Origin: a virus
IMG/VR virus record: IMGVR_UViG_3300024518_002751
Location: 1-20,717 of that record
Direction: 5' to 3' (one strand)
DNA: 20,717 nucleotides
Under the pieces are notes generated by a model. It worked only from the letters and a program-made list of their open reading frames with translations. It had not been told where the DNA came from and ran no database searches. Numbering within the stretch: the stretch's first letter is position 1; every line of letters starts with the position of its first letter. This document shows, piece after piece, positions 1 through 20,717 of the stretch. The position numbers and the translations under genes were made by a program.

Positions 1-1611
1 TTTCCGAACCGCGTCGTCGACGGCGTACCAGAACTGCACAACCTCGGGGTATGCTTCGCGGAAAATCTGCACGGCTCGCGCGCTTTCCTCTTGTGACAGG
101 TTCACGCCGAGCGCTTCCGAGTAGGCCCACAACCCCGTCTTGATCATCTCGCCGGTCTTTTTGCCGTGCTTGCGGACCGGCATTAACCGACCGCCGCCGA
201 GCATATACCCGGCACCGAGAACGGCGGGCTTGCTGTTCGTGCGTTGCGCTTTCGTGATCTCGTTGTATGGGACGCCATACATCCGGGTCCCGAAATCCTT
301 GTAAGGGTCGAGGCCGTTCCGAAAGACGTCGAGGATCGCGTCGCACCGAGCGAGCCAACCAAGTACCCGGTTTTCGATCGCGTTGTAATCCGCCACGCGT
401 AAAATTTTACCAGCGGGAGCGCGTAACGTGGGCCGGATGCAACCGGCGACGACGTCCATCGGCTTGTCGTATAACTCGCGCAGGAACTCCGCGTCGCGGG
501 CCTTGATCGCTCGGACCGCTAACGCCAACGCCCCCGGCGTGCCGAGTTCGCCCGGCGGCCGTGGGAGGTTTTGGTATTGCGCGCCGCGACCGGCCCAGCG
601 GCAAGTCCGGCCCGCGCCGTTATATTGCAGCGTATAACACAAGCGGCCGTCGACCGTCTGCGCGTTGATTTTCGGGTATTTCGAGGTAGAGGTCCGGCCG
701 AATTGGGCACGCAGCGCGAGCGCTTTCCGGGCGATCGGGGTCAGCCCGTCGTCGCGGAGGGCGAGTTCGACCTTGTCCTTTTTCAGACTGTCGAACGGGT
801 AGCCCTCGGCCTGTACCCACGGTAAAAACTGCGCCGCGCTGTTCGGGTTGACGAGTCCGGTCAGAATTGAGCACTCGCGTTTTAACGCGGTTTTCAGGTC
901 GTCGGCGACCTCGATCGCGGCGTCGACAAGCTCGCCGTCGATCGGCATCCCGCGCGCGTTCATGTTCTGGTCGTGCCACCATGTCCGGATCTCGTCCGGT
1001 GGTGGCAAAAAAGCGGCCATGCGGTTGAGGCATTTCCGCTCGGCGATCACGTCGCGGCGGCAATACTCGCCGAACTGGGTCCATTTTTCGGGGTCTGTCG
1101 ACCAATTCCGGCGGCGTATTTTCTGGCCTTTGGGCCTCGGTTTGCAAAATAGCTGTATCAACTTTTTGCCGGTGCCCTGTTTCGCGTGCTCGTCGTCGAG
1201 CTGTAACACGGTCGACGCCCCGGCAAGTGCTCCGGGGAGCGACATCGCGAACGCGACGACCATCGCGTCGAGCCATTTCTCGGCCGGGGTTTCGATCCCC
1301 CAAACGTGGCGGAGAATTTCGCGTTCAAACGGAGCATTCCACGCGATCAAAATCACGTCGGGATCGTTGCAGGCTTTGATTATCTCTGCGACGTGGGAAT
1401 GGTTTCGCGGGTCGGAGTCGTTCGCGATGTCGTACAGGTCCGGCTCGTCGTTATCGTAGGCATACGCGGCGAGCGTGATCTCGGTCGACGGGTGCGACGC
1501 GTAGGCGCGAATTCCGTTTTTGATGTCACACTCGCTGTAGGTCTCGAAATCGAGGTGAAACGCTCGGGAATATCCAAGCGCGTTAATGAATCGTTCGAGG
1601 GTCGGGGTCAT
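1..1611 (-). CDS. Family A DNA polymerase with 3'-5' exonuclease (3' end beyond window)
   Basis: This is the replicative DNA polymerase of the phage. The 537 visible codons start at ATG 1611, behind a strong SD (GGAGGAA), and run off the left edge without a stop. The N-terminal part is a DnaQ-like proofreading domain: Exo I HLDFETYSE (Asp21, Glu23), Exo II IAWNAPFERE (Asn92 region) and Exo III YCRRDV (Asp187). The polymerase domain shows motif A as VADYNAIENRVLGWLA (Asp408) and motif B as KPAVLGAGYMLG (Lys461). Motif C (usually HDE) would lie outside the window. The DYxAIExRVLxWLA form is typical of phage polymerases that sit beside DUF2815/DUF2800 genes. No 5'-3' exonuclease domain is seen. 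It follows the ssDNA-binding protein gene in the same operon, behind a possible intercistronic terminator. Confidence 0.95.
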   Translation of the reverse strand, partial: MTPTLERFINALGYSRAFHLDFETYSECDIKNGIRAYASHPSTEITLAAYAYDNDEPDLYDIANDSDPRNHSHVAEIIKACNDPDVILIAWNAPFEREILRHVWGIETPAEKWLDAMVVAFAMSLPGALAGASTVLQLDDEHAKQGTGKKLIQLFCKPRPKGQKIRRRNWSTDPEKWTQFGEYCRRDVIAERKCLNRMAAFLPPPDEIRTWWHDQNMNARGMPIDGELVDAAIEVADDLKTALKRECSILTGLVNPNSAAQFLPWVQAEGYPFDSLKKDKVELALRDDGLTPIARKALALRAQFGRTSTSKYPKINAQTVDGRLCYTLQYNGAGRTCRWAGRGAQYQNLPRPPGELGTPGALALAVRAIKARDAEFLRELYDKPMDVVAGCIRPTLRAPAGKILRVADYNAIENRVLGWLARCDAILDVFRNGLDPYKDFGTRMYGVPYNEITKAQRTNSKPAVLGAGYMLGGGRLMPVRKHGKKTGEMIKTGLWAYSEALGVNLSQEESARAVQIFREAYPEVVQFWYAVDDAVRK

Positions 1612-1666: not shown

Positions 1667-2269
1667 TTACACCTCGTCGTCGTCGAAATCGTCGTCGTCG
1701 AAATCGTCGTCGTTGACGTTCTCAACACCCGAGGCGAGCGGGTCGCCGTCTTTCTTGAACTGGACGCCGAGCAAATTCGCGTTGATACGTTTCCCGAACT
1801 TGTTGTCCTGCGCCCAGAACCCGACGAGCGCGGTCACATAACAACCGTCGTATATTACGCCGTCCTCCTCGGTGAGCGGAGACTTGTCACGGTTGACGAC
1901 TGTCGGGCGTTTCGTTTCGCTCGCGGCAAGCTGGTACGTGTTTTCCAGATAGGCAGGGAGGTTGCCGTCTTGGTCCTCGACCGTTACGTCGGTGACGAAT
2001 TGTTCGTCCTGCAACGACTCGTCGGCGGATTTCAGGCAGTAACCCAAAACTTTCATCTTGCCGCCTTTCCATTTGTCGCCCCATTTTTCCGAACCGATGC
2101 GGTCGATCTCTTTGCGGATCGCTTTCACCGCTTTCACATGTTCCGGGTTGTCCGCGTCCAATACAAACTGTGCGTTGTATCTCTGGTTCTCGGACGAACC
2201 CTGAAAGCCCTCAGCTTTAAAGATGCGAGCGAAATTTATGCGGACGTTTGGAAGTTTAATCTTTGACAT
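1667..2269 (-). CDS. ssDNA-binding protein, Enc34/DUF2815 family
   Basis: The 200-aa product resembles the DUF2815 family (renamed after the Enterobacter phage Enc34 ssDNA-binding protein), OB-fold proteins that coat single-stranded DNA during phage replication. The N-terminus KIKLPNVRINFARIFKAEGF and the later stretch YDGCYVTALVGFWAQDNKFGKRINANLLGVQF match what I know of the family. The last 15 or so residues are almost pure Asp (DDDFDDDDFDDD), the acidic tail with which SSBs recruit partners. This tail is encoded by a short repeated DNA unit (about 1674-1718). The start at ATG 2269 has SD AAAGGT. It lies directly upstream of the polymerase gene, as expected for a replication partner. Confidence 0.88.
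   Translation of the reverse strand: MSKIKLPNVRINFARIFKAEGFQGSSENQRYNAQFVLDADNPEHVKAVKAIRKEIDRIGSEKWGDKWKGGKMKVLGYCLKSADESLQDEQFVTDVTVEDQDGNLPAYLENTYQLAASETKRPTVVNRDKSPLTEEDGVIYDGCYVTALVGFWAQDNKFGKRINANLLGVQFKKDGDPLASGVENVNDDDFDDDDFDDDEV
1674..1718. repeat. In-gene short tandem repeat encoding the acidic SSB tail
   Basis: The plus strand reads as repeats of a 15-bp unit built from GTCGTCGTCGAAATC, about two and a half copies. It encodes the poly-Asp tail with interspersed Phe of the SSB. Such a repeat could change length by slippage while keeping frame. Confidence 0.6.
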
Positions 2270-2300
2270 ATTACTTTACCTTTTTACTGTTTACGTTACT

Positions 2301-2449
2301 GCGCGTTAGTCGCGCGGCCAGTGCGGCCGAATTGTCGCACTTTGAAAGGCTCAACGAGCCGTCTTACAGTCAACTACGGCAATGAGTGTCCGTAGTCTCA
2401 GAAGTTCACTCTCCTATATCATGAGTACAGGTGAACCCTTCAAAGTGCG
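2301..2449 (-). ncRNA. Candidate structured RNA / folded 5' leader of the SSB gene
   Basis: The 226-bp gap between a small gene (stop at 2496) and the SSB start (2269) contains a long-range perfect 11-bp helix, CGCACTTTGAA (2336-2346) with TTCAAAGTGCG (2439-2449). It encloses three perfect hairpins: 2348-2360 (5 bp, 3-nt loop), 2373-2396 (7 bp, 10-nt loop) and 2404-2436 (6 bp). The loop of the middle hairpin holds TGAG (2383-2386), which can pair with CTCA (2397-2400) just outside its stem, as in an H-type pseudoknot. Two more hairpins follow nearer the SSB gene: 2315-2329 (5 bp) and 2301-2315 (5 bp). The minus strand is the transcribed direction. It does not fit a tRNA, and I do not recognise a known riboswitch or ribozyme. 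It may be a cis-regulatory leader, a processed small RNA or a ribozyme-like element. Confidence 0.5.
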
Positions 2450-2495
2450 CCCGGCTACGTTAACACGACAACCGGAACACTACAACACTTTATTG

Positions 2496-2723
2496 TTAAA
2501 AGACGCCGGTCTTTCCGGGATGTCCTCCGGGGAGACGGAAGTCCGCCCACGGTGTGCAATTGCCGTTAATATAGTCCGACGTCGCGCCGTTCTTAACGTG
2601 TTTGACCGTCTCGCGCCCGGTCTGTCGGGATTTAAAAACCGCTACGCCCGGTATAACCGTTCGTCGCACGAATGAAAACGTTTCTGTGATTCGTCGAGCT
2701 TTCACTTGTCTGTCGTTTAACAT
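2496..2723 (-). CDS. Small protein of unknown function (75 aa)
   Basis: ATG 2723 is preceded by a clear SD (AAGGAGA) inside the end of the upstream gene, whose stop is only 2 nt away. This placement supports a real coupled gene. The product begins basic (MLNDRQVKARRITETFSFVRR) and ends in a Gly/Pro-rich stretch (WADFRLPGGHPGKTGVF). No known domain is recognised. It is followed by the folded RNA candidate and then the SSB gene. A longer reading frame on the opposite strand (2382-2675) has no comparable start context. Confidence 0.6.
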   Translation of the reverse strand: MLNDRQVKARRITETFSFVRRTVIPGVAVFKSRQTGRETVKHVKNGATSDYINGNCTPWADFRLPGGHPGKTGVF

Positions 2724-2725
2724 GT

Positions 2726-3154
2726 TTATGTCTCCTTATCGTTGTTGTCGAGGTGCGCCTGTGCGTCGGCCGAGTCCGCAAAATCACAAGCGATGTTCTG
2801 CGCGACCGCCATTATGTCAATGAAATCGTCGTCCGGGTCTCCCGGCCCGTCGTGGTGCCGAGAAACGAAAACGTGCCCCGGTCTACCGGATTTTTTCTCG
2901 TTCAACGCCATAACCTCCGGGATTGATTCCAAAACAGGATAGACCCGTTCGGTCAACGTCGACAAGTCGACCTCTGCCATGCCGTTTCCGTCCCATTTCT
3001 CGAACGTTTCGAGCTTGTCGTGGAACCCGGAGAGACACGTCGAGAGATTATCAGGCACCGGGTACGGGCTTTGTATCGCTAACCATTTAGCCAGCGACCC
3101 GACAAGGTCCGAACGGAATATCCAGACGTTACGCTTAAAACGGGGGTGGCTCAT
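2726..3154 (-). CDS. Unknown protein in replication operon (142 aa)
   Basis: The start at ATG 3154 overlaps the stop of the nuclease gene in an ATGA arrangement (stop 3153-3151), so the two are translationally coupled. A longer frame reaching back to 3499 is a shadow of the nuclease gene. The product begins MSHPRFKRNVWIFRSDLVGS, is Trp-containing in its first third, and has an acidic Asp-rich C-terminal half (GDPDDDFIDIMAVAQNIACDFADSADAQAHLDNND). No catalytic motif is recognised. Its position between nuclease and SSB suggests a replication or recombination role, but nothing in the sequence proves it. Confidence 0.75.
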   Translation of the reverse strand: MSHPRFKRNVWIFRSDLVGSLAKWLAIQSPYPVPDNLSTCLSGFHDKLETFEKWDGNGMAEVDLSTLTERVYPVLESIPEVMALNEKKSGRPGHVFVSRHHDGPGDPDDDFIDIMAVAQNIACDFADSADAQAHLDNNDKET

Positions 3155-7661: not shown

Positions 7662-7698
7662 GCCGGGCGATTGTCTCGGCTGTTTAAGATGCCATCGC

Positions 7699-7739
7699 AA
7701 AAGCCGACCGGGTTCGTGGTTGTCCCGGTCGGCTTTTTA
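7699..7739 (+). terminator. Rho-independent terminator after the primase-helicase gene
   Basis: A perfect 14-bp stem (AAAAGCCGACCGGG 7699-7712, CCCGGTCGGCTTTT 7724-7737) with an 11-nt loop ends in TTTTTAT. It closes the early rightward operon. Its T-tract runs directly into the first copy of the repeated promoter block. The A-rich 5' side makes partial function on the other strand possible. Confidence 0.9.
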
Positions 7740-7751
7740 TTTGCACTAAAT

Positions 7752-7818
7752 AACAACAAAGTGTTGTTATTGTGCTTTTTGTCTGTATAATAGGTTTTAT
7801 TGAATCGATACACAGACA
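7752..7818 (+). promoter_or_regulatory. Repeated promoter block, copy 1 (P1) with operator
   Basis: The inverted repeat AACAACA-AAG-TGTTGTT (7752-7768) overlaps the -35 TTGTTA (7764-7769). A 16-bp spacer leads to a perfect -10 TATAAT (7786-7791). The conserved leader (ATAGGTTTTATTGAATCG then ATACACAGACA) continues to 7818, followed by an AAGGCGGA-type SD and ATG 7830. Similarity to the other copies begins at the terminator T-tract near 7734. Copies 1 and 4 share the leader right through ATGAC of the start region. Confidence 0.88.
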
Positions 7819-7874
7819 AGGCGGACAACATGACCAACACCAAGCAACTCAGTTACCCAATGTTTACAAAGCAT
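7797..7874 (-). pseudogene. Truncated 5' end of a foreign leftward gene at the insertion edge
   Basis: An ATG at 7874 overlaps the stop of the preceding leftward gene (TAATG) and reads MLCKHWVTE. It then crosses the junction near 7850 into the leader of cassette 1 and stops after 25 codons. The first eight or nine codons belong to the inserted AT-rich segment. The rest of the original gene was evidently left behind when the segment moved. Confidence 0.4.
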
Positions 7875-7901
7875 TATTTTTCCCCTTCAATTACTTTCTG
7901 A
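7830..7901 (+). pseudogene. 5' remnant of the cassette 1 gene, cut by insertion
   Basis: Reading from ATG 7830, just after P1 and an SD, gives MTNTKQL and then unrelated codons of the inserted segment up to a stop at 7899-7901 (23 aa in all). The first 20 nt (7830-7849) match 8687-8706 at 17 of 20 positions. There the reading continues as TKQLAKEFNVSEADL. The original gene was therefore most likely MTNTKQLAKEFNVSE..., now split by about 857 bp. Confidence 0.6.
7838..7849 (+). repeat. Direct repeat at left edge of the inserted segment
   Basis: CACCAAGCAACT here is identical to 8695-8706. With the flanking bases the match is 17 of 20 (7830-7849 against 8687-8706). It marks the left border of the AT-rich segment and may be the site of the recombination that brought it in. 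Confidence 0.7.
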
Positions 7902-8041
7902 CAGCCGAATAGTACAATCTTGAATAGTCGCGGCCTGTCTTTAGCCCATCGTCGTAACTTCTCTACGTCTTGACCTGTCATCTCTGCTACTTGACGAAGG
8001 CTGTCTAAGCCTACCGCCTGTGCTTGTTTGTTTGGTGTCAT
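7874..8041 (-). CDS. Small phage-type protein of unknown function in inserted segment (55 aa)
   Basis: ATG 8041 follows AGGCAGG at SD distance. The product (MTPNKQAQAVGLDSLRQVAEMTG... KLRRWAKDRPRLFKIVLFGC...) resembles a class of very small phage proteins that share the pattern 'QA..lGL.SL.qV.e.tg....L..W...rP.LF.iVl.G'. This is from memory of such proteins; their function is unknown to me. The frame closes with TAA that overlaps the next ATG, which supports a natural operon. The codon use is AT-rich, unlike the phage core. Confidence 0.7.
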   Translation of the reverse strand: MTPNKQAQAVGLDSLRQVAEMTGQDVEKLRRWAKDRPRLFKIVLFGCQKVIEGEK

Positions 8042-8246
8042 TTCCTGCCTCTATTATTTCTCTTTGAGTTTTTGCATCGCATGAGGTATTAATATCTACT
8101 TGACGGCGATATTCTGCGGCCCAATTAATCCCAACATGGAGACCAACCCCCTTTGAAGCCTCCGCCCATTGCTCCCCGTTAATCTTAACTTGGTCGCCTT
8201 CTTGTATAGCTTCGCCAGCCTCTAGTATTCTGTAATGTGTTTTCAT
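7941..8246 (-). CDS. Small unknown protein in inserted segment, C-terminal end doubtful (101 aa as read)
   Basis: ATG 8246 has the SD GGGGAAG. The first 55 or so residues (MKTHYRILEAGEAIQEGDQVKINGEQWAEA...VGLHVGINWAAEYRR) look like a genuine small protein. The frame then overlaps the following gene by 101 nt and its tail becomes Ser/Arg-rich (RQPSSSSRDDRSRRREV), as expected for out-of-frame reading. In another frame the reading ends at TAA 8056-8054, just before the SD of the next gene. A frame change near 8080-8100 may therefore have occurred, or the overlap is natural. Function is not recognised. Confidence 0.6.
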   Translation of the reverse strand: MKTHYRILEAGEAIQEGDQVKINGEQWAEASKGVGLHVGINWAAEYRRQVDINTSCDAKTQREIIEAGNDTKQTSTGGRLRQPSSSSRDDRSRRREVTTMG

Positions 8247-8255
8247 TTCTTCCCC

Positions 8256-8435
8256 TTACTTATCCCATTCTGCCCACTGCTTCTCAGCCTTCTCAACTTC
8301 CTGTGTATAGTATGTAACGTATGCTGCTGCTTTCCCGCCGTTCTGTAGCTTTCGCTTAACAACCTTATTAGTTCTAAGGTCTATAACCTGCCAATTTCCC
8401 GCTTCGATTCTTTTTACTTCGGCTATGTTGCTCAT
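8256..8435 (-). CDS. Small unknown protein in inserted segment (59 aa)
   Basis: I choose ATG 8435 (MSNIAEVKRIEAGNWQVIDLRTNKVVKRK), preceded by CAGGGGAATGAG, as the start. The frame opens back to TTG 8462. Still further upstream, an excellent SD (AAAAGGAG) precedes ATG 8471, which is in the same frame but followed at once by TAG. The product is a short basic protein with a charged C-terminal helix (TQEVEKAEKQWAEWDK). The family is unknown. It shares the AT-rich composition of its neighbours. Confidence 0.65.
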   Translation of the reverse strand: MSNIAEVKRIEAGNWQVIDLRTNKVVKRKLQNGGKAAAYVTYYTQEVEKAEKQWAEWDK

Positions 8436-8548
8436 CTCATTCCCCTGCGTGTTTTGTTTCAATAACTACATAGTACTCCTTTTTAAGCAGAAATCTATCA
8501 TTATATCTTTTTAACTATACCGATTAGCTATATAGAATCCGCTTTTAA

Positions 8549-8686
8549 TTACTGCCAGCTCTCGAAGTCTGTTATCTCTCCGGCCTGTAATCGCTTCAGC
8601 TCCTTTCGGTAGTATGCTGCTATATCCTTCTCCTCTAGCTTGCTAACCTTCTGCTTTGAATCGCGCTTATCTCTCAAAATCTCCAT
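8549..8686 (-). CDS. Small helical unknown protein at right edge of inserted segment (45 aa)
   Basis: Reading from ATG 8686 gives MEILRDKRDSKQKVSKLEEKD IAAYYRKELKRLQAGEITDFESWQ, a highly charged helical peptide. The start lies at the segment border, beside the direct repeat, so the gene may have lost its native N-terminus and promoter. GAAGGT upstream could act as a weak SD. The gap 8436-8548 downstream of it is very AT-rich and holds a TATAAT on the minus strand without a clear -35. Confidence 0.45.
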   Translation of the reverse strand: MEILRDKRDSKQKVSKLEEKDIAAYYRKELKRLQAGEITDFESWQ

Positions 8687-8929
8687 GTGACCTTCACCAA
8701 GCAACTAGCAAAAGAGTTCAACGTAAGCGAAGCAGACCTTGTGGGCTTCGCGAAATTGATCGCGGGATCACTGTCACAGGACGGCGTAAAACCTGAACAG
8801 GTAGACGGTGAAATGGTTGAAGCCTACGCGGTGAGCCAAGTCAAAAAGACCGACCGTTTTGTCTCGACGTATCTCACGAACGCGGAAGCCCGCGAAACCC
8901 TGAAAACAACTATCCGTCGTTCTCTTTAG
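8687..8929 (+). pseudogene. Main body of the split cassette 1 gene (80 aa readable)
   Basis: The frame opens at GTG 8687, which has no SD. It reads TKQLAKEFNVSEADLVGFAKLIAGSLSQDGVKPEQVDGEMVEAYAVSQVKKTD...IRRSL. The first seven codons duplicate the start of the 7830 remnant. The composition returns to that of the phage from about here. The original start and promoter P1 now lie about 857 bp upstream beyond leftward genes, so expression is doubtful. A deletion between the 12-bp repeats would restore an intact 80-aa gene. Function is unknown. Confidence 0.6.
8695..8706 (+). repeat. Direct repeat at right edge of the inserted segment
   Basis: Second copy of CACCAAGCAACT, 857 bp from the first (7838-7849). 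Confidence 0.7.
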
Positions 8930-12015: not shown

Positions 12016-12082
12016 AACAACAAAGTGTTGTTATTGTGCTTTTTGTCTGTATAATAGGTTTTATTGAATCGATACACAGACA
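12016..12082 (+). promoter_or_regulatory. Repeated promoter block, copy 4 (P4) with operator
   Basis: Operator AACAACA-AAG-TGTTGTT (12016-12032), -35 TTGTTA (12028-12033), 16-bp spacer, TATAAT (12050-12055). The leader to CACAGACA (12082) and on through AAGGCGGACAACATGAC is identical to copy 1. Similarity starts at 11998 in the terminator. Confidence 0.88.
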
Positions 12083-12093
12083 AGGCGGACAAC

Positions 12094-12438
12094 ATGACTA
12101 AATCAATTATAGCTAACTTCTCGAACGGCTTAGCAGACGAGTACAAAGGCACGCGCGAAGTTAAGGCGGCTTGGGTAATCTTCAACAAAGAAACTGGAGA
12201 AACTTTAAACTCCGGCCATAGCTTAACCACCAACGCCGCCGCATCAACCGCCGCAACTAATATGGGGCACTTAATGCCAAGCCTACCTAAGAAGCCGACC
12301 AAGGCGCATTTAGTTTCAGAGCATGAAGAATTCTTAAAATGGGGCGGCTGGGCAACTCATAAAGAAATGGCAGCAGAACGAACAGCAGAACGAGCCGTTT
12401 TCAGAGCAGCGCATACAATCGAAATCGTCGAACTTTAA
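12094..12438 (+). CDS. Unknown protein of foreign composition, first gene of cassette 4 (114 aa)
   Basis: ATG 12094 lies in the P4 leader with AAGGCGGA as SD. The product (MTKSIIANFSNGLADEYKGTREVKAAWVIFNKETGETLNSG...EMAAERTAERAVFRAAHTIEIVEL) has an Ala-rich middle and a helical charged C-terminus. No family is recognised. Its codons are clearly more AT-rich (TTA Leu, AAA, GAA) than those of the core genes, which suggests recent arrival of the coding part under an old promoter. Confidence 0.72.
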   Translation: MTKSIIANFSNGLADEYKGTREVKAAWVIFNKETGETLNSGHSLTTNAAASTAATNMGHLMPSLPKKPTKAHLVSEHEEFLKWGGWATHKEMAAERTAERAVFRAAHTIEIVEL

Positions 12439-12450
12439 CCGAACCGCAAC

Positions 12451-12470
12451 GGGGCGAAAGCCCCAAGGAG
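12451..12470 (+). promoter_or_regulatory. GAAA-tetraloop hairpin joined to SD, copy 2
   Basis: GGGGC-GAAA-GCCCC (12451-12464; 5-bp stem) leads directly into AAGGAG (12465-12470), then ATG 12480. Positions 12452-12470 are identical to 9592-9610. Confidence 0.65.
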
Positions 12471-12479
12471 AACAACGCA

Positions 12480-12686
12480 ATGGAAACTTTCCGCATTTAC
12501 GAGAAGCAAAGCCAGAGAGACACCCGCGAGGGGTACACGATCGGCGCGAAAACCCTTTCACAAGCAAAGAGGCACGCGACGTCTAGGCAGGCGTTCTACG
12601 GCACGGTTTTAGTGATCGAAAGCGAGAACGGGCGAGTCTTGGCGGTCAAAGGCAAGGACGGCAAATGGTCCGAGCCGAACGACTGA
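12480..12686 (+). CDS. Small basic protein of unknown function, second gene of cassette 4 (68 aa)
   Basis: ATG 12480 follows the hairpin-SD module. The product METFRIYEKQSQRDTREGYTIGAKTLSQAKRHATSRQAFYGTVLVIESENGRVLAVKGKDGKW resembles small single-domain phage proteins with a beta-helix-beta pattern. No named family is claimed. The final PND and stop match the gene ending at 9265. Confidence 0.7.
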   Translation: METFRIYEKQSQRDTREGYTIGAKTLSQAKRHATSRQAFYGTVLVIESENGRVLAVKGKDGKWSEPND

Positions 12687-12693
12687 ACACACG

Positions 12694-12716
12694 ACCGCCG
12701 AGAGGCGGTTTTTTAT
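12694..12716 (+). terminator. Rho-independent terminator ending cassette 4
   Basis: ACCGCC (12694-12699), GAGA loop, GGCGGT (12704-12709), then TTTTTATTT-like tract. The 24 bases 12677-12700 are identical to 9280-9303. Confidence 0.85.
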
Positions 12717-12727
12717 TTATACTATTT

Positions 12728-12794
12728 AACAACAAAGTGTTGTAATTGTGCTTTTTGTCTGTATAATAGGTTTTATTGAATCGATACACAGACA
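12728..12794 (+). promoter_or_regulatory. Repeated promoter block, copy 5 (P5) with operator
   Basis: Operator AACAACA-AAG-TGTTGTA (12728-12744), -35 TTGTAA (12740-12745), 16-bp spacer, TATAAT (12762-12767). The conserved leader ends at 12794, followed by AGGAGA and ATG 12806. Similarity starts near 12709. Confidence 0.88.
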
Positions 12795-12805
12795 GGAGAA
12801 ACAAG

Positions 12806-13069
12806 ATGACTACATTAACCGCATGGACTCACGACACTAACGGCAACCTAGTTGCCCTAAACTCTCACGGCGAACTCGTCGCCGCGAAACACATCGCGAC
12901 GACCGCCGTCGTGATCCAGTGGGAAACCACTTGCGGCCAATGGGTCGCCCGTGTCGCCGCTATTCGCGACGGCTTGACGTTGACGGGGGCCAAGCGCCGC
13001 CAAGCTGTTCCGGGGTCCGGCCGGTTGGTCGCCGCTCCTAAAAAACGAGCGTGGCACGCTCCGCGCTAA
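12806..13069 (+). CDS. Small basic protein of unknown function, cassette 5 (87 aa)
   Basis: ATG 12806 lies 6 nt after SD AGGAGA. The product (MTTLTAWTHDTNGNLVALNSHGELVAAKHIATTAVVIQWETTCGQWVARVAAIRDGLTLTGAKRR...) begins with short beta-like stretches and ends Lys/Arg-rich (KKRAWHAPR). No family is recognised. The stop is part of the 19-nt module also found at 10406. Confidence 0.7.
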   Translation: MTTLTAWTHDTNGNLVALNSHGELVAAKHIATTAVVIQWETTCGQWVARVAAIRDGLTLTGAKRRQAVPGSGRLVAAPKKRAWHAPR

Positions 13070-13123
13070 ACAACCGCCCGCGAAACGTAAGCCCGGCGAA
13101 ATGTCGGGCTTACGTTTCGCGGG
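13067..13123 (+). terminator. Stop-codon/hairpin module copy 2, with long perfect hairpin closing the cassette array
   Basis: TAAACAACCGCCCGCGAAA (13067-13085) repeats 10406-10424. Here it becomes the 5' arm of a perfect 19-bp stem: CCCGCGAAACGTAAGCCCG (13077-13095), 9-nt loop, CGGGCTTACGTTTCGCGGG (13105-13123). No T-tract follows at once, so it may stop polymerase weakly or protect the RNA 3' end. It is the last element before the non-coding late-control region. Confidence 0.6.
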
Positions 13124-13476
13124 ACTTCATTGTGTCGCTTTTGTCGCTTTTGTAACGGAAAAACCCCTTTAAAATCAAGGGTGTAACAACTACTACACTT
13201 GTACAGTATTTATTGTATAGCAACATTTATAAATGTGTAACGAGTATAAGTAAAAGCTAATGTAAAAAACCACACTCAAAATAGGAACCAGTGAAAAAAC
13301 GGCGTACAGTTGTCGCTTTTGTAGTCGCCGCACTGGGCGGGGCTTTCCGGCCGGTTTTGCGTTACAGAAATGTGTTACAGCTACAAAAAAAGTGTAACAG
13401 TAGCGGAAACGAGGCGGACGGCTTACAATGCAACGGAATGCCGCAGGGCGGCGAACCATTAAAGGCAGGGCTTAAA
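13124..13476 (+). promoter_or_regulatory. Non-coding, repeat-rich region before small terminase; candidate pac/late-control site
   Basis: About 350 bp without a convincing gene. The hexamer TGTAAC occurs at 13151, 13182, 13236 and 13393, and as its complement GTTACA at 13361 and 13374. GTCGCTTTTGT occurs at 13134, 13143 and 13312. A perfect 14-bp palindrome, ACATTTATAAATGT, lies at 13223-13236. The middle (13185-13275) is AT-rich and could hold a promoter, but no convincing -35/-10 pair stands out. Iterated short sites just before the small terminase gene fit either packaging recognition or late-gene regulator binding. A GTG-started frame from 13291 would cover part of this, but its translation looks unnatural. 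Confidence 0.5.
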
Positions 13477-13935
13477 ATGGCAGGCGGACGGCCTAAAAAG
13501 TTTAAACCGGAGTATCTGAAAATCGCGCAGACTATGGCGAAAGTAGGTTGCACGGAATACGAAATCGCGGAAGCGTTGAACATTAACCGGATAACCTTTT
13601 GGCGTTGGAAGCAAGAAAACGCCGAGTTTTGCAACGTTGTTGCAGTCGGACGGGACCAAGCGACCGACCGAGTCGAGAAAGCGTTGTACTGTCGAGCCGT
13701 TGGAATGAAACGGAAAGTACAGAAAGTAGCCTCCTTTCAAGGGGTCCACGAGATCGTCGAAGTGACCGAGGAGGTGCTCCCGGATGTCGTGGCCGCTAAG
13801 TTCTGGTTAACGAATCAAAAGTCTAAAGAGTGGCGCAACATGCCCGAGATCGGGGACGACCTCGAAGCGGTGCCGCTGGCGATCCTGTTCAACCGTAAGG
13901 ATGCGAGCAACGCACCCGACGAGGGCGACGTGTGA
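13477..13935 (+). CDS. Terminase small subunit (152 aa)
   Basis: It recognises packaging DNA and loads the large subunit. I choose ATG 13477 (MAGGRPKKFKPEYLKIAQTMAKVGCTEYEIAEALNINRITFWRWKQEN), where a basic start and helix-turn-helix (GCTEYEIAEALNINRITFWRWK) are typical of small terminases. GGCAGGG gives a modest SD. The frame is open back to GTG 13291 and has another ATG at 13438. After the HTH a helical middle and an acidic tail follow, usual for oligomerisation and large-subunit contact. Its end overlaps the GTG of the large subunit. Confidence 0.85.
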   Translation: MAGGRPKKFKPEYLKIAQTMAKVGCTEYEIAEALNINRITFWRWKQENAEFCNVVAVGRDQATDRVEKALYCRAVGMKRKVQKVASFQGVHEIVEVTEEVLPDVVAAKFWLTNQKSKEWRNMPEIGDDLEAVPLAILFNRKDASNAPDEGDV

Positions 13936-15224
13936 CGGCTCAGCAACAACCACAACAGGCGACCGAGTTCGATTTAAACTACCCACAGGCCGACTTTGTG
14001 GAATTGCCGCATAAGTTCGCGGCGTTCGTCGCCGGGTTCGGTTCGGGCAAGACGTTTGTCGGTTGCGCCAAACAATTGAAGCATTTCGCCGAGTTCCCGA
14101 AAGTGAACCAAGGCTACTTCGCGCCGACGTACCCGTTGATCCGGGATATTTTCTATCCCACGATCGAGGAGGTGGCGTTCGCGATGGGGTTCAAGGTCAA
14201 GATCAGGACCGGGGACAAAGAGGTCGACGTATATCGCAACGGGGCCTACTACGGCACAACTATATGCCGGACGATGGACAACCCGGCGAACATTATCGGG
14301 TTCAAGATCGGCCGCGCACTCGTCGACGAGCTGGACGTGTTGCGCGCAGACAAGGCGCGCGACGCTTGGCGGAAAATCATCGCCCGGCTACGTTGGCCGG
14401 GTGACGCGAATATCTCCAACGGGGCAGACGTTACGACGACGCCCGAGGGATACAAACTCACATACGAGCTATTCAAGGACGACCCCAAACCGTCCTATGG
14501 ATTGATACAGGCGAGCACTTACGACAACCGGGCGAACCTACCCGCCGGGTACATCGAATCGCTTGTCGAGACCTACCCGGATCAATTAATAAGCGCGTAC
14601 TTACGCGGGCAATTCGTTAACCTCACGAGCGGGCGCGTGTATCCGAATTACGAACGGATCAAAAACGTGTCGTTTGAAACGGTCGACGGGTTCGAGCCGG
14701 TGCATATCGGGATGGACTTCAACGTCGGCAAAATGGCCGCCGTGGTCCACGTTACACGGGGCGAGAACATCCACGCCGTCGACGAACTGTTCAAGCTGGC
14801 CGACACGCCCGCTATGATCGAGGCGATCAAACAACGTTACCCTGACAACCCGGTGAACGTTTACCCGGACAGCTCGGGCAAGAACACAAGCTCCAAGAAC
14901 GCGAGCGAGTCCGACATCGGACTGTTAGAACAAGCGGGTTTTTCGGTCCACTATGAAAGCCAAAACCCGAGGATAAAGGACCGAGTCCTTGCGATGAATC
15001 GACAATTCGGCGACGAGAATCACGTCGGCCGGTACCATGTAAACGTGGCGTGGTGTCCGAGCTATGTGAAGTGTTTAGAACAGCAAGCCTACAACCCAAC
15101 AACAAGCGAACCCGACAAAGCGAACGACCTCGACCACCTCCCGGACGCCGGGGGCTACTATATCGCGAACGTTCGCCCTATAATCAAACCAGTATTAACA
15201 CACGACATCCGAATGAGGCGATAA
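13932..15224 (+). CDS. Terminase large subunit, ATPase and nuclease (430 aa)
   Basis: It drives DNA into the prohead and cuts it. GTG 13932 overlaps the previous stop (GTGA). Walker A is GFGSGKT (35-41), Walker B is ALVDE (129-133), and the coupling motif lies near TTTPEGYKLTYE. The RNase-H-like nuclease has HIGMDFNVGKMA (Asp262), VYPDSSG (Asp313) and DLDHLPDAGGYY near the end. The length is usual for the family. The portal ATG follows 1 nt after the stop. Confidence 0.95.
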   Translation: MTAQQQPQQATEFDLNYPQADFVELPHKFAAFVAGFGSGKTFVGCAKQLKHFAEFPKVNQGYFAPTYPLIRDIFYPTIEEVAFAMGFKVKIRTGDKEVDVYRNGAYYGTTICRTMDNPANIIGFKIGRALVDELDVLRADKARDAWRKIIARLRWPGDANISNGADVTTTPEGYKLTYELFKDDPKPSYGLIQASTYDNRANLPAGYIESLVETYPDQLISAYLRGQFVNLTSGRVYPNYERIKNVSFETVDGFEPVHIGMDFNVGKMAAVVHVTRGENIHAVDELFKLADTPAMIEAIKQRYPDNPVNVYPDSSGKNTSSKNASESDIGLLEQAGFSVHYESQNPRIKDRVLAMNRQFGDENHVGRYHVNVAWCPSYVKCLEQQAYNPTTSEPDKANDLDHLPDAGGYYIANVRPIIKPVLTHDIRMRR

Positions 15225-15225
15225 C

Positions 15226-16677
15226 ATGGTCCAGATCATCGACCACCCGGAATACACCGAACGCTTGCCACAATGGCAGGCGGTACAAGACACAGCAAGC
15301 CCGACGGGTGTCAAAGATGCGCGGACGACCTACCTCCCATACGTCGGCGACCCGCAGAACGCGGACGACGTCACCGCCTACGATCGATACCTTAAACGGG
15401 CGCAGTTTTACGGGTTCACCGCTGAAACGGTGCGCGGCCTTGTCGGTCTCGCGTTCGACGACGGAATCACGTTAGAAGACAACCCCGAGGGCCTCGAATA
15501 CCTCGAAACCAACATCGACGGCGACGGGCTCGGGATTCAACAGTCCGCCCAAAAGACGACACGCGACACGGTCAAACAGGGCCGCGCGGGTTTACTCGTG
15601 GACTACCCGAACAGCTCCGGCACGGTCACCCGATCCGAGGCGGCCGAGAAAGGTCTCCGGGCGAGCGTGATCAGCTATGACGCGTTTCAGGTGCGGAACT
15701 GGCAGTCGAGAAAATACGGCGCGCTCCGGTCGCTGTCGTTGGTCTCGTTGGCCGAATCGGTCGACGTTGTACAGGACGACGGGCTCACGGTGAAACCCGA
15801 GACCCAAGAACGCCGCCTCGTGTTGACGGACGAACTCGACGACGGGGGCAACACCACCGGCGCGCGGGTTTATCAGGTTGAGATATACCGAGACAACGAC
15901 GGCGACAGTGAGACCCCGGTCGAGACCTATGTCCCGCGAAAGGCAGACGGGAAACCGTTCGACTATATCCCGTTTTTCTTTATCGGGTCCGACAACAACG
16001 ACACGACGATAGACGACTCGCCGATGTTCCCGATCGCAGACTTGAACGTCGGGCATTACCGCAACTCGGCGGACTACGAAAACAGTATTTTTATGTTGCA
16101 GCCCCAACCGTGGGCGAGCGGATTGTCCCAAGCATGGGTCGACAAGAACATGACAGGGTTCCGGCTTGGCTCGGGTGCGTTGCTCGCGTTGCCGGTGGGC
16201 GGTCAATTTGGGATCGAACAACCGGAACCGAACACGATCGCGTTTGAGGGGATGGAATACAAACAGAAAGCTATGATCGCACTCGGGGCGAAAATGCTCA
16301 CGGCCGACATAAGTTTCAACACGGCACGCGAGGCGATGCTGTCAAACGGACCGACCACGTCGAAACTACAGACAATCGTTAATAACGTTGAGACCGCGTA
16401 TAACGACGCGCTGACGGTTGTCGGGGAGTTCATGGGCATCGAGCCGCCGGTATTCGTGGTTAACGCTGACCTGTCGAAACTGGCAGGCGATGCACAGCTC
16501 GCGGCGGTTATGGTTAACGCGTGGATGTCTGGCCTTATCGGCAAGACGGACGCCCGCGACTATATGCGTGCTCAAGGCTTGATCGAACGCACGGACGAGG
16601 ACATCGACGGCGACCTTGAAACCGAGGGACCCGACCTTGATCTTGACGACGACAACGGAGACGAGGGCGGCGAATAA
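15226..16677 (+). CDS. Portal protein, DUF4055-like (483 aa)
   Basis: It forms the dodecameric ring through which DNA passes. The N-terminal part (DARTTYLPYVGDPQNADDVTAYDRYLKRAQFYGFTAETVRGLVGLAF) matches the pattern I know for DUF4055 proteins, which hold the portal position in this gene order. The C-terminus is very acidic (DEDIDGDLETEGPDLDLDDDNGDEGGE). Its place between large terminase and the Mu F-like gene supports the call. The stop overlaps the next start (TAATG). Confidence 0.85.
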   Translation: MVQIIDHPEYTERLPQWQAVQDTASPTGVKDARTTYLPYVGDPQNADDVTAYDRYLKRAQFYGFTAETVRGLVGLAFDDGITLEDNPEGLEYLETNIDGDGLGIQQSAQKTTRDTVKQGRAGLLVDYPNSSGTVTRSEAAEKGLRASVISYDAFQVRNWQSRKYGALRSLSLVSLAESVDVVQDDGLTVKPETQERRLVLTDELDDGGNTTGARVYQVEIYRDNDGDSETPVETYVPRKADGKPFDYIPFFFIGSDNNDTTIDDSPMFPIADLNVGHYRNSADYENSIFMLQPQPWASGLSQAWVDKNMTGFRLGSGALLALPVGGQFGIEQPEPNTIAFEGMEYKQKAMIALGAKMLTADISFNTAREAMLSNGPTTSKLQTIVNNVETAYNDALTVVGEFMGIEPPVFVVNADLSKLAGDAQLAAVMVNAWMSGLIGKTDARDYMRAQGLIERTDEDIDGDLETEGPDLDLDDDNGDEGGE

Positions 16678-17744
16678 TGGCCGACGCTTTACTTGACGCG
16701 ATCACCCGGCACCAAATATGGACGCAGCAACTCGCGACCACGGAGGCCCGCAAGATCGACCCAGTTATGAAGGACATCGACCGGATCATTCGGTCCGAGT
16801 TGTCCAAGACTGAACGGATCGAGACCCGGACCCAGTTGTCGAAACTCGTGTCGACGTTACGCCGTCGGATAAAAGCGATCTACGGCGATTGGACGACCGG
16901 CCTCCTTGACGACTTCGAGGACATCGCGGACGCCGAGGCCGATTTCGTGATGGACGCCTTGAACCGGATCACCACCGACGCGGAAGCGGACGCCCCGAAA
17001 AACCTGTCGGCGTCGATCCTCAACCGACCGATACAGACCAACGACAACGGCGAGTCGGCGTTACTCGTCCCGCTGTTGAGCGCGTTTACCCGAGGCGAGA
17101 CCGAACGGGTCCTCGGCACGGTGCGGAACGGATACTCGAAAGGCTGGACGAACGCGGAAATCGTTCGACGGTTACGCGGGACCAAGGCGAACAACTTCAA
17201 AGACGGGATTCTTGCCATAAGCCGACGGCACGGTGAGACGATCGCGATCACCGGGACGAACCATGTCGCGAACACCGCAAAGGCGGCAACGTATCACGCG
17301 AACTCGGACATCGTGCAGGATTGGACATTCGTCGCGACGCTTGACAGTCGAACGACTAACATTTGTCGGTTCCACGACGGCACGGAGCACGATCTCGGAG
17401 AGGGACCCGTCCCACCGTTGCACCTCCGTTGCAGGTCGACGCAGGTCCCGAACATCAAGAGCGAGTTTTCCATTCTAGGCAAACAGGCAACCAAGACCCG
17501 AGCCAGTAAAGGGGCCGCCGGTGGCGGAACGACGAAAAAATCCCCATACTATGAGTGGTTAGAAACACAGCCGAAATGGTTCCAAGAGGAAACCCTCGGC
17601 ACAAGTAAAACGGAGTTATTCCGCAAAGGCGGACTATCTGCGGACGAGTTTCGGAGACTGACGTCGGACCGGTTCGGTGAACCGTTAACGTTAGACGAGA
17701 TTCGAGCTAAAAACCCGGACGCGTGGCGCGATGCCGGGCTATGA
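16677..17744 (+). CDS. Mu F-like minor head protein (355 aa)
   Basis: ATG 16677 overlaps the portal stop. The core ITGTNHVANTAKAATY...DWTFVATLDSRTTNICRFHDGTEHDLGEG..PPLHLRCRSTQVP (about residues 190-260) is the hallmark of the Phage_Mu_F / SPP1 gp7 family, with Cys and His residues in the same places. The C-terminal extension (YYEWLETQPKWFQEETLGTSKTELFRKGGLSADEF) is often joined to this domain in phages. The protein sits inside the prohead near the portal and helps DNA exit or head assembly. Confidence 0.88.
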   Translation: MADALLDAITRHQIWTQQLATTEARKIDPVMKDIDRIIRSELSKTERIETRTQLSKLVSTLRRRIKAIYGDWTTGLLDDFEDIADAEADFVMDALNRITTDAEADAPKNLSASILNRPIQTNDNGESALLVPLLSAFTRGETERVLGTVRNGYSKGWTNAEIVRRLRGTKANNFKDGILAISRRHGETIAITGTNHVANTAKAATYHANSDIVQDWTFVATLDSRTTNICRFHDGTEHDLGEGPVPPLHLRCRSTQVPNIKSEFSILGKQATKTRASKGAAGGGTTKKSPYYEWLETQPKWFQEETLGTSKTELFRKGGLSADEFRRLTSDRFGEPLTLDEIRAKNPDAWRDAGL

Positions 17745-17750
17745 TTTGCA

Positions 17751-17817
17751 CCCGCCGCGCGGTGGGGTATACTTCAAACAGGTTCCAGAGGAACCAACAC
17801 ATTGAACGGGGTTCAAT
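17751..17817 (+). promoter_or_regulatory. Three hairpins before the scaffold gene
   Basis: Hairpin 1 is CCCGCC-GCGC-GGTGGG (17751-17766, one G-U pair). Hairpin 2 is GGTTCC-AGA-GGAACC (17781-17795, perfect). Hairpin 3 is ATTGAAC-GGG-GTTCAAT (17801-17817, perfect), which ends against ATG 17818. The only SD-like bases (GGGG) lie in and beside the loop of hairpin 3. It could limit translation of the scaffold or provide a processing site. Confidence 0.5.
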
Positions 17818-18474
17818 ATGACCGACCAAAACAAAGACCACGATAAAGACAAAGACAACCTAGGCGGCGACGGTGAGGTGAAAAAGTTCTCACAGGCTGA
17901 CATGGACAAGATGATCGACGAACGCACCGCCGGACTACGGTCCAAGGTGGACGAGTTACTCGGCGAAAAGAAAACCGCCTCGCAGAAACAACGCGAAGCG
18001 GAGGCGGCCGCAGCGGCCGAACGCGAGAAACGGGCGAAAGACGACGGCGATCACAAGGCGTTATTCGAGTCCTCCGAGCAAAAGCGCGGAGAACTACAGA
18101 CGCAATACGACACGCTTCGGGATTCAATCCGCAGCGAGAAACGAAACGGCGAAGCGTTGAAAATATCCTCGCAACTCGCCAGCGGCGACAATGTCGGACT
18201 TTTATCGGAGTTCGTCGCACGACGTGTAGACGTCAACGACGACGGGAAAACGGTTGTATTGAATGAAGATGGTTCCCCGAGTGTTCTTACACTCGATGAA
18301 CTGAAAACAGAGATCGAGAAGTCGGGACGGTTTAACGCTTTGTTAGACGGTCCCAAGTCCTCGGGCGGCGGAGCCTCCCGGACTGGAAACGGTGGAGCCG
18401 GAACCGGGACGGACATTTCAAAGATGAGTCGAGAGCAAAAGAAACTATTTTACCGCCAAAAACGAGCAACATAG
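17818..18474 (+). CDS. Prohead scaffolding protein (218 aa)
   Basis: The protein is highly charged and helical: MTDQNKDHDKDKDNLGGDGEVKKFSQADMDKMIDERTAG, then a long coiled-coil stretch (KKTASQKQREAEAAAAAEREKRAKDD), a Gly-rich segment near the end (SSGGGASRTGNGGAGTGTD), and a basic C-terminus (SREQKKLFYRQKRAT). The basic end is the usual capsid-contacting part of scaffolds. It lies directly before the major capsid gene, 12 nt apart, as scaffolds do. No protease domain is visible. Confidence 0.85.
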   Translation: MTDQNKDHDKDKDNLGGDGEVKKFSQADMDKMIDERTAGLRSKVDELLGEKKTASQKQREAEAAAAAEREKRAKDDGDHKALFESSEQKRGELQTQYDTLRDSIRSEKRNGEALKISSQLASGDNVGLLSEFVARRVDVNDDGKTVVLNEDGSPSVLTLDELKTEIEKSGRFNALLDGPKSSGGGASRTGNGGAGTGTDISKMSREQKKLFYRQKRAT

Positions 18475-18486
18475 AGGACTTAAAAC

Positions 18487-19443
18487 ATGGCACTATCAGA
18501 TATGGAAGTATTTAACGAGCAATCGCAAATCGTCGCGACGGAAGTCGTCGACCAAGCGGTCCGCAAATTCAACGAAGCGAGCGGCGGCGCGTTGCTGCTA
18601 GGTAACGCCGCGCATATCGGTGATTACATCGAGCAAGCGAGCTATAAACTAATATCGGGCTTGGTGTCACGTCGTGACGCGTATGGCTCGGGCGCGCTTT
18701 CTACGAAAGCGATTCAACAGCTAAAGGACGTGAGCGTCAAGGTTGATCAGTCGATCGGCCCGATGGAATGGTCTGTCGAACAGTTCCGCCGTTTACTGAA
18801 AGACCCGGAAGAGGCGGGGATCGTTATCGGTGAGCAGGCAGGCGAAGCCATGTTGCAAGACTATCTCAACATCGCGGCGTCGTCGCTTGTTGCGTCAATC
18901 GGCAACGTTGCGGCGTTGGTCAACGACTACGGCGCTACGGGCACGGCGAAACTTGTCGAGCTGAACACGGCGGCCGGTAAATTTGGCGATCGTCAAATGG
19001 ACCTGTCGGCGTGGTTGATGCACTCGAAAGTGTTCACCGACTTAACAAACGAGGCGATCACGAACACGTCGCAACTGTATAACATCGGTAACATCCGAGT
19101 TTTACAGGACGGCTTAGGTCGTCGCTACGTGGTAACGGACGCACCGGCGTTGTTGGTTTCCGGGGTGCCGGATACATACAACACCGTGGGCATGGTTCCG
19201 GGTGCGGCAATGATCGAGACTATGCCGATGGTTTCCTTGACGACCAATAAAACGGAAGTTGAGAACATGGGCACGGTTTGGAAGGGCGAAAGCTCGTTCA
19301 CTGTCGGCTTGAAAGGTTACGCTTGGGACATGACCAACGGCGGCGCGTCTCCTACGGATGCCGAGCTGGCAACCGGTTCCAACTGGGACAAGGTTGTCAC
19401 AAGCAACAAAGACACCGCAGGCGTGATGCTAATCAGCCAGTAA
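18487..19443 (+). CDS. Major capsid protein (318 aa)
   Basis: ATG 18487 follows GAGGAC. The product (MALSDMEVFNEQSQIVATEVVDQAVRKFNEASGGALLL...) and its size and position after the scaffold fit a HK97-fold major capsid protein. Segments such as MDLSAWLMHSKVFTDLTNEAI, GRRYVVTDAPALL and WKGESSFTVGLKGYAWDMTNGGASP recall the spine helix and later beta regions of such proteins (I associate it with Gp13-like capsid families, not certain). A terminator follows at once, which would make this the most abundant late message end. Confidence 0.88.
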   Translation: MALSDMEVFNEQSQIVATEVVDQAVRKFNEASGGALLLGNAAHIGDYIEQASYKLISGLVSRRDAYGSGALSTKAIQQLKDVSVKVDQSIGPMEWSVEQFRRLLKDPEEAGIVIGEQAGEAMLQDYLNIAASSLVASIGNVAALVNDYGATGTAKLVELNTAAGKFGDRQMDLSAWLMHSKVFTDLTNEAITNTSQLYNIGNIRVLQDGLGRRYVVTDAPALLVSGVPDTYNTVGMVPGAAMIETMPMVSLTTNKTEVENMGTVWKGESSFTVGLKGYAWDMTNGGASPTDAELATGSNWDKVVTSNKDTAGVMLISQ

Positions 19444-19450
19444 AACCCCG

Positions 19451-19475
19451 ACGGGCGGCACACGCCGCCCGTTTT
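19451..19475 (+). terminator. Rho-independent terminator after the major capsid gene
   Basis: ACGGGCGGC (19451-19459), ACAC loop, GCCGCCCGT (19464-19472), then TTT. A perfect 9-bp GC stem with a short T-run suggests partial termination, so that capsid protein exceeds downstream products. Confidence 0.75.
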
Positions 19476-19504
19476 ACACCCAATAACCACACAGAGAGAC
19501 CACA

Positions 19505-19774
19505 ATGTCTAATCGAAATAAGTTAGCCGGTAAAGAGTACGGCAAGGGCAAGAGAATCGTTAAACAGTTCGGCGAGAAAAAAGAGATCAACGTCGTCTAT
19601 GTTGCCCACCCGGTAAAACAGGCACGTAAAGCGGAGCTAAGAGGCAAGGGTCGAATTATCGACGTATTGCAAGCCCCGGACGATATTCGCGAGAAATACA
19701 TCGACGATTTGCAGGCGGAAGACAAGCCAGCGCCAAAAGCGAAAGCCAAAAAGGCCGCAGACGACGACGTCTAA
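19505..19774 (+). CDS. Small basic/acidic late protein of unknown function (89 aa)
   Basis: ATG 19505 follows AGAGAG. A Lys-rich start (MSNRNKLAGKEYGKGKRIVKQFGEKKEINVVYVAHPVKQARK) is followed by a linker with Lys/Ala repeats (KPAPKAKAKKAADDDV). Its place between capsid and further head genes suggests a head-associated or assembly role. No family is recognised. Confidence 0.75.
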   Translation: MSNRNKLAGKEYGKGKRIVKQFGEKKEINVVYVAHPVKQARKAELRGKGRIIDVLQAPDDIREKYIDDLQAEDKPAPKAKAKKAADDDV

Positions 19775-19799
19775 ACACCCAACCCCCGGAGCGTAGACA

Positions 19800-20492
19800 A
19801 TGGCCTCAACCGTCGCAGCGACAAAACAAGTGATCATGTCGGACATGTTCACCGCCGAAAACGACGTCGCCCTCCGGCGGTTCAAGGTCTCGACGGTAAC
19901 CCGTCAAGAGATATTGATCGCGCGCGGGGACTTTTTCGTCGGTAACAGTGAACGGGTTAACGTCCCGGTCGGGGACGTTCATTATTCCATCGTTATCGCT
20001 CCGATCGACAAGTTCCTGATTATCGAGGACGTGATTCAAGACGTGAGTTTTTCCGCCGTCAGCGACGGCAAGTTCACGCAGAAAATGGACGCGTTCATCG
20101 ACGGGAGCATTACCTCGAATTTCAGCTACACACCGAACGCCCCGACCCCGATCGGGCGGGCGATGATCAGTTCATCGATTAACGGCTTCCCCGGTTCAAC
20201 GGCGGACATCGGTATCCCGGTCGGGGATGTCACGGTCACGGGAACCCCCGAGTATGGCCTCACGTTCAGCGAATTTTACATCGACAACAGCGGCAACCGT
20301 AACGTCGTGTCGCAGACGGCCTCGTCGTTTTTCGACAAGGGCCGACAGCTTATTCTCGCACCGGGAGCCGTTGCGCTTGTCCGGGCGACCACGACAGGCG
20401 ATGCCACCGGCACCGCCGACGTGCGTACGACATTTTTCACGAGCGAGCTGTCTATTGACGAGGCTCCAACACTTTTAGGGATTAACCCATGA
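19800..20492 (+). CDS. Particle-associated protein of unknown function (230 aa)
   Basis: ATG 19800 has CCCCCGGAGCG upstream, with GGAG as SD. The product is rich in beta-prone Val/Thr/Ser stretches (DVTVTGTPEYGLTFSEFYIDNSGNRNVVSQTASSFFDKG) and Gly turns, as in capsid decoration or connector proteins. No signature is recognised. It lies between the capsid gene and a DnaT_2-type gene and overlaps the latter (ATGA 20489), so a head role is likely. Confidence 0.78.
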   Translation: MASTVAATKQVIMSDMFTAENDVALRRFKVSTVTRQEILIARGDFFVGNSERVNVPVGDVHYSIVIAPIDKFLIIEDVIQDVSFSAVSDGKFTQKMDAFIDGSITSNFSYTPNAPTPIGRAMISSSINGFPGSTADIGIPVGDVTVTGTPEYGLTFSEFYIDNSGNRNVVSQTASSFFDKGRQLILAPGAVALVRATTTGDATGTADVRTTFFTSELSIDEAPTLLGINP

Positions 20493-20717
20493 CGGTTATT
20501 GTTGAGGACGGAACAGGCTCGAACCCGAACGCGAACAGCTACGCGGACGAGACCGAACTCGGAACGTTTGCCGCGTCTCGCGGGGTTACGTTGTCGGGTG
20601 ATCCGACCGAATTATTGATCAAGGCGATGGACTACGTCGAAGCGTACCGGGACCAGTTCCAAGGGTCCAAGGTTCAACAGGTTCAACCGCTGCAATGGCC
20701 GCGCGCGACGGTTTACG
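20489..20717 (+). CDS. DnaT_2-type protein, probable head-completion/connector (3' end beyond window)
   Basis: Seventy-six codons are visible: MTVIVEDGTGSNPNANSYADETELGTFAASRGV...LLIKAMDYVEAYRDQFQGSK...PLQWPRATVY. This start (VEDG.G...ANSY......Y...RG, then A.DY.....F.G.K....Q.LQWPR) is the well-known pattern of the so-called DnaT-like phage proteins that lie after the capsid gene. Their place among head genes suggests an adaptor-like role despite the name. The gene continues outside the window. Confidence 0.85.
   Translation, partial: MTVIVEDGTGSNPNANSYADETELGTFAASRGVTLSGDPTELLIKAMDYVEAYRDQFQGSKVQQVQPLQWPRATVY

Follow-up and report, generated by a model that had tools for sequence, protein, structure and literature searches.

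In phages T4 and RB69, the gene 32 mRNA carries a folded 5' element followed by unstructured UUAAA/UAAA repeats over the ribosome site, and gp32 spreads on this repeat region and represses the translation of its own mRNA (PMC535899, PMC3014915). A 2010 review described the gene 32 pseudoknot as possibly the only viral example in translational autoregulation (PMC3014915). Two other structured RNAs bear on the comparison made here. DUF2815 RNA (RF03084) is named after the protein family PF10991, formerly DUF2815, and its consensus comprises a hairpin, an A-rich Shine-Dalgarno region and an AUG; natural type II hammerheads have been described with a pseudoknot between loop I and the tail (PMC3088659).

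We compared these systems with the leader of an SSB gene on the minus strand of an unclassified phage, a 20.7-kb record of which the whole 20,717 nt, here called the window, was analyzed. As in T4 and RB69, a folded element lies 5' of A-rich repeats that overlap the Shine-Dalgarno sequence of a phage SSB gene. The gene is assigned as SSB by PF10991 and phrog_112, and its Shine-Dalgarno sequence is covered by five GUAA repeats that are unpaired in the prediction. At the 5' position, however, another folded element was found in place of a pseudoknot, and we therefore did not place the leader in the gene 32 operator family. Whereas the T4 element is a pseudoknot of ~28 nt combined with UUAAA/UAAA repeats, the window has a helix/junction element of ~114 nt combined with GUAA repeats. 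Its SSB is of the gp2.5/Enc34 type, a family unrelated to gp32, and SSBs of the Enc34 type differ from gp32 in structure. The leader shares with DUF2815 RNA the PF10991 context and the A-rich region before the AUG, but DUF2815 RNA is a single hairpin of 62 nt, and its covariance model gave no match in the window at E values up to 10. The type II hammerhead leaders that we found in relatives (for example L038 and L051) likewise place a structured RNA before a PF10991 SSB gene, followed by an A-rich start region; unlike them, the window lacks the self-cleaving GAA/CUGAYGA core with its loop I pseudoknot. A hammerhead of the RF02276 type was rejected for the window itself, since inspection of 2260-2510 on the minus strand revealed no core (CUGANGA, GAAA, H17) and Rfam returned no match.

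Genomic setting of the SSB leader

In the order of transcription, the minus strand encodes a 174-aa ORF, a DUF2800 protein, a Tad5-like protein, a 75-aa ORF, then the stretch under study, SSB and DNA polymerase A. The SSB gene (1667..2269, minus strand) is gp2.5-like and of the Enc34 type (PF10991 in Pfam, E 7e-29; phrog_112 in PHROG, E 5.2e-36). The polymerase gene downstream of it (1..1611, minus strand; PF00476) is cut by the window end, and its product is 43% identical to a Casjensviridae polymerase. The ORF list bore out the first-pass annotation: the stretch is non-coding and separates an upstream ORF from the SSB gene. This 75-aa ORF (2496..2723, minus strand) had no match in Pfam or PHROG, and the gap that separates it from SSB is 226 nt, compared with 5–30 nt in many relatives. 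Two genes upstream of SSB, the protein encoded at 2726-3154 on the minus strand matched Tad5, an inhibitor of type I Thoeris (PF25190, E 7e-33). An IMG/VR contig (L012:4512-13207) proved identical to window 12022-20717; because this identity spans 8696 nt, the contig represents the same phage, and the leader lies outside its reach.

A copy of a 17-bp palindromic operator, AACAAYA-AAG-TGTTGTW, lies at 2481..2500 on the minus strand, where the stop codon of the 75-aa ORF touches it. It is the sixth copy in the window and has 0–3 mismatches to four plus-strand copies, none of which is expected by chance; in the six-way alignment the operator core is nearly invariant. The palindrome sits at the -35 position of five promoter repeats. 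These are units of ~104 nt (at 7734, 9312, 10064, 11998 and 12710) in which the operator is joined to a sigma-70-like promoter; they are situated upstream of small genes, and most are preceded by a terminator. At 7831-8706, a gene start is repeated 857 nt apart (TGACCAACACCAAGCAACT and TGACCTTCACCAAGCAACT), and between the two repeats lies a cassette of ORFs on the opposite strand. Its GC content looks lower, and it is possibly an insertion behind the promoter.

Beside the shared operator copy we read a candidate promoter (2457..2485, minus strand) with a -35 element TTGTAG (2485-2480), a 17-nt spacer and an extended -10 element TG-T-TAACGT (2462-2457). Each hexamer agrees with the consensus at 3 of 6 positions, and a consensus promoter scan did not list TTGTAG-17-TAACGT. 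Judged from these elements, the RNA would start at about G2450, one nucleotide before the first strand of the long helix P1 described below.

Predicted fold of the leader RNA

Folding of the minus strand went far beyond shuffled sequences. The 117 nt from 2334 to 2450 (minus strand) gave -50.7 kcal/mol and a z-score of -6.2, and 0 of 200 dinucleotide shuffles folded as well. The first-pass annotation had held that so many perfect helices are unlikely by chance. This applies to the fold as a whole but not to its 11-bp long-range helix taken alone, since shuffled windows contained a mean of 1.09 such helices. In a scan of 2060 segments of 117 nt, the leader on the minus strand was beaten only at 7674-7810, at 11974 and at 13034-13190. 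The sequences at 7674-7810 and 11974 are those of terminator hairpins. In the third place, a perfect 19-bp inverted repeat with a 9-nt loop and no T-run (13077-13123) is among the strongest folds of the window.

The folding signal was also strand-specific, with z-scores of -4.5 on the minus strand and -1.6 on the plus strand for the whole 231-nt stretch, and of -6.2 or lower against about -3.8 in the 117-nt scan at the leader site. This bias arises because two G.U pairs exist only in the minus transcript. These data indicate that the leader fold is real as a prediction, on the minus strand. The same observations weigh on the view that the stretch acts as DNA (a cruciform, an origin or a protein site) or has no function. 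Inverted repeats are symmetric in DNA, and no homologue is available to show selection on RNA pairs; however, the 18-bp helix needs the two G.U pairs of the minus-strand transcript, and together with the strand difference this makes a DNA element or a functionless stretch very improbable.

The structured core of the leader RNA (2336..2449, minus strand) is dominated by an uninterrupted 18-bp helix, P1, in which 2449-2432 pairs with 2353-2336 with pair probabilities near 1. P1 contains two G.U pairs and encloses P3 and a small hairpin; its outer 11 bp (2449-2439/2346-2336) are all perfect pairs, and runs of at least 18 pairs with G.U allowed occurred in only 1 of 40 shuffles. P3 (2373..2396; ACUACGG/CCGUAGU, 2396-2390/2379-2373) has a pair probability of 0.98. 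The growth of P1 from 11 to 18 bp borrows one strand of each of two other hairpins, P2 (2403..2437; 2437-2431/2409-2403) and P4 (2348..2360; GGCUC/GAGCC, 2360-2356/2352-2348). Both are present in the sequence with an equilibrium pair probability of 0.00 and belong to an alternative junction fold, in which P3 is retained; P2, P3 and P4 are perfect or contain one G.U pair. Every helix named in the first-pass annotation was thus found on the minus strand, as were two further short hairpins, GGCC(GCACU)GGCC (2328-2316) and GCGCG(ACUAA)CGCGC (2315-2301), both of which are part of the minimum-energy structures of the long transcripts tested.

The arrangement proposed for these helices had to be revised. 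The 11-bp helix had been drawn as closing a junction of three hairpins; the helices exist, but the predicted fold is the 18-bp P1, and enforcing P1, P2, P3 and P4 together gave -42.2 kcal/mol compared with -49.4 kcal/mol for the favored fold. The four-way junction, ~7 kcal/mol above the P1 fold, was accordingly downgraded as the main structure. The H-type pseudoknot between TGAG and CTCA was not significant either, since 27% of shuffles gave at least four loop-flank pairs and its formation would need a 0-nt loop across a 7-bp stem, and it too was downgraded.

Because P2 and P4 share strands exactly with the 18-bp P1, the two folds are mutually exclusive, and a ligand could select between them as in a riboswitch. 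When the growing transcript is 50 nt long, its minimum-energy fold does contain P2; those of longer transcripts do not. Such a bistable switch is nonetheless most improbable: equilibrium prefers one fold by 7 kcal/mol, no Rfam model matches, and there is no visible output, since neither fold covers the Shine-Dalgarno sequence and no terminator is present. No helix of the leader is followed by a U-run, and a terminator scan found no intrinsic terminator or attenuator in the leader stretch; for the same reason, the short hairpins at 2328-2301 are not a terminator. The lack of a terminator between fold and SSB, together with a start region whose Shine-Dalgarno sequence follows directly, also makes it very unlikely that the leader promoter yields a stable small RNA, or a decoy, that acts independently in trans, even though the fold is compact and independent, has its own operator, and Rfam types DUF2815 RNA, which has a similar context, as an sRNA.

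P1 itself admits two further explanations. Phages such as T7 use RNase III processing sites, and cleavage of the 18-bp helix and the hairpin stacked on it would part the mRNA of SSB and polymerase from the operon RNA upstream of it. The helix is uninterrupted, a further stem lies in the same fold, and transcripts that read through from upstream form this fold as well; yet 18 bp before the junction are fewer than the two turns usually cut, and we regard an RNase III site as quite unlikely. Alternatively, the leader could serve as a 5' stabilizer only, in which a 5' end held in a long helix slows decay by RppH and RNase E and much SSB and polymerase is made without feedback. It is known that 5' stem-loops, for example that of ompA, stabilize mRNAs. 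The leader resembles the ompA type in that a helix would seal its 5' end: P1, whose pairing is near-certain, begins 1 nt from the predicted +1 (G2450). The leader structure is, however, much larger. We consider the stabilizer unlikely as the sole function, since it leaves the five GUAA repeats and the unpaired start region unexplained and the promoter is weak by consensus.

Start regions and leaders of related SSB genes

The last hairpin ends 31 nt before the SSB AUG, and the region between them (2270..2300, minus strand) is A-rich and unpaired. It carries five GUAA repeats (2299, 2294, 2287, 2279 and 2274) over the Shine-Dalgarno sequence AAAGG (2283-2279); none of 20000 shuffles reached five GUAA in 34 nt. 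With 0.53, its fraction of A was the highest among the start regions tested, and its mean unpaired probability was 0.72; it was unpaired also in the 200-nt leader fold.

We found the same tendency across the family. The start regions of 35 SSB genes had an A fraction of 0.385, compared with 0.279 for other genes on the same contigs (p 1e-5), and short direct repeats reached p<0.05 in 8 of 43 SSB start regions, the window included, against 3 of 102 others (Mann-Whitney p 1.2e-5), where the comparison genes were mechanical ORFs with a Shine-Dalgarno sequence. On the repeat statistic the window's own p was 0.057. The family-level enrichment of A and of repeats at SSB starts supports leader control in a suggestive way only. 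Short direct repeats lie directly before the SSB start in several loci, among them L009 (GTGAAACCC), L094 (GTAAACC), L023, L079 and L083.

A type II hammerhead-like RNA was found upstream of the SSB start in 12 leaders of related PF10991 genes, of which 11 are distinct (L038:2400-2503, and in L040, L043, L044, L045, L047, L049, L051, L054, L055, L056 and L057). GAA, CUGAYGA and H17 (A or C) were present in 12 of 12. Stem III covaried strongly, as many as four types of pair occurring at a single position; stem I showed compensatory changes, and a pseudoknot joins loop I to the tail. Stem II is minimal, its first pair being T.T in 6 of 11. The leader of L038 scored 24.3 bits against RF02276 (E 0.0029), below the cut-off of 37, and the Rfam hammerhead model failed to reach most of the others. 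If these RNAs cleave themselves, the SSB mRNAs would begin with the loop I-tail pseudoknot.

For the window fold itself, searches by sequence, pattern, covariance model and protein neighborhood in IMG/VR, phage and plasmid collections and GTDB revealed no homologue. Blastn against the phage collection gave short weak matches only, and a covariance model of the fold matched none of 88 other loci (87 from the SSB searches plus L012) and none of five phage loci. The closest relatives have SSBs about 42% identical and polymerases 43% identical; queries with SSB, VapE, DUF2800 and PolA in IMG/VR and with SSB in GTDB returned no relative exceeding 42% identity along its length. The searches thus yielded no covariation for the leader helices, and this is the main weakness of the case. 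Several candidates were rejected. One IMG/VR match to the pattern of the P1 arms (L011) is not a relative but a contig end with a terminal inverted duplication, and a pattern built on the loops and linkers, with the stems left free, hit a single unrelated sequence in four near-identical copies. In Ruegeria phage vB_RpoS-V16, a 130-nt gap two genes upstream of the polymerase (L098:2272-2401) holds three strong hairpins (z -4.6); it was set aside because Pfam does not recognize the following gene as SSB. Rfam models gave no match in the window at gathering score, and at E values up to 10 only a spurious sucC (E 1.4). This agrees with the earlier failure to recognize a riboswitch, ribozyme or tRNA, and a known riboswitch or ribozyme was rejected as the identity of the leader.

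A possible autoregulatory operator

The strand specificity conferred by the G.U pairs, the operator copy upstream and the unpaired GUAA start region support the assignment of the stretch as the leader of the SSB/polymerase mRNA, and we conclude that it is likely a structured cis leader of this message. The regulatory RNA suggested by the first-pass annotation is upheld to this extent, whereas its proposals of metabolite sensing and of a separate small RNA found no evidence.

How the leader works can be proposed by analogy with T4 gene 32. Transcription would begin at the operator-controlled phage promoter just upstream, placing the RNA 5' end within about 1 nt of the long helix, which would seal it. 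The helix and two hairpins would form a compact, stable block, and about 31 nt before the SSB AUG the RNA would turn single-stranded and A-rich, with the five GUAA repeats and the Shine-Dalgarno sequence included. SSB in excess of the single-stranded DNA of replication could then load side by side on these repeats, adjoining the folded block or nucleated by it, and the loaded protein would block the ribosome, so that the level of SSB is kept in step with replication; the polymerase may be co-controlled through coupling. The fold, its strand bias, the operator copy, the repeats and the unpaired start region were computed, while we infer the start site, SSB binding and repression; RNA folds and start-region statistics are predictions and not proof of binding.

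We hold it quite possible, though tentative, that the leader functions as such an autoregulatory operator. This reading is favored by the strength of the fold (z -6.2), the gp2.5-like SSB downstream, the five GUAA repeats, the gene 32 layout and the operator upstream, as well as by the start regions of the relatives, which are richer in A and in short direct repeats. It is disfavored by the lack of a fold homologue and of a supported pseudoknot, by the weak promoter and by an Enc34-type SSB unlike gp32; RNA is not mentioned in the Enc34 SSB paper. Leader control cannot be universal in the SSB family, since many members have leaders of 5–30 nt.

A broader reading, which we consider rather unlikely as it stands, is that phage gp2.5/Enc34-type SSB genes recurrently control themselves through their leaders, in which a single-stranded loading zone with repeats over the ribosome site is combined with interchangeable structured 5' blocks: the large fold seen here, a DUF2815 hairpin, or a hammerhead whose cleavage of the mRNA leaves a 5' pseudoknot. 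If true, an SSB family unrelated to gp32 would have come by convergence to a control comparable with that of T4 gene 32. The window leader is a compact construct for testing SSB autoregulation. Autoregulation of SSB through an RNA operator is already known from T4-like phages; if gp2.5/Enc34-type SSBs share the logic of gene 32 with other RNA blocks, the principle of an SSB that gauges the spare single-stranded DNA as it loads on its own mRNA would be both general and convergent.
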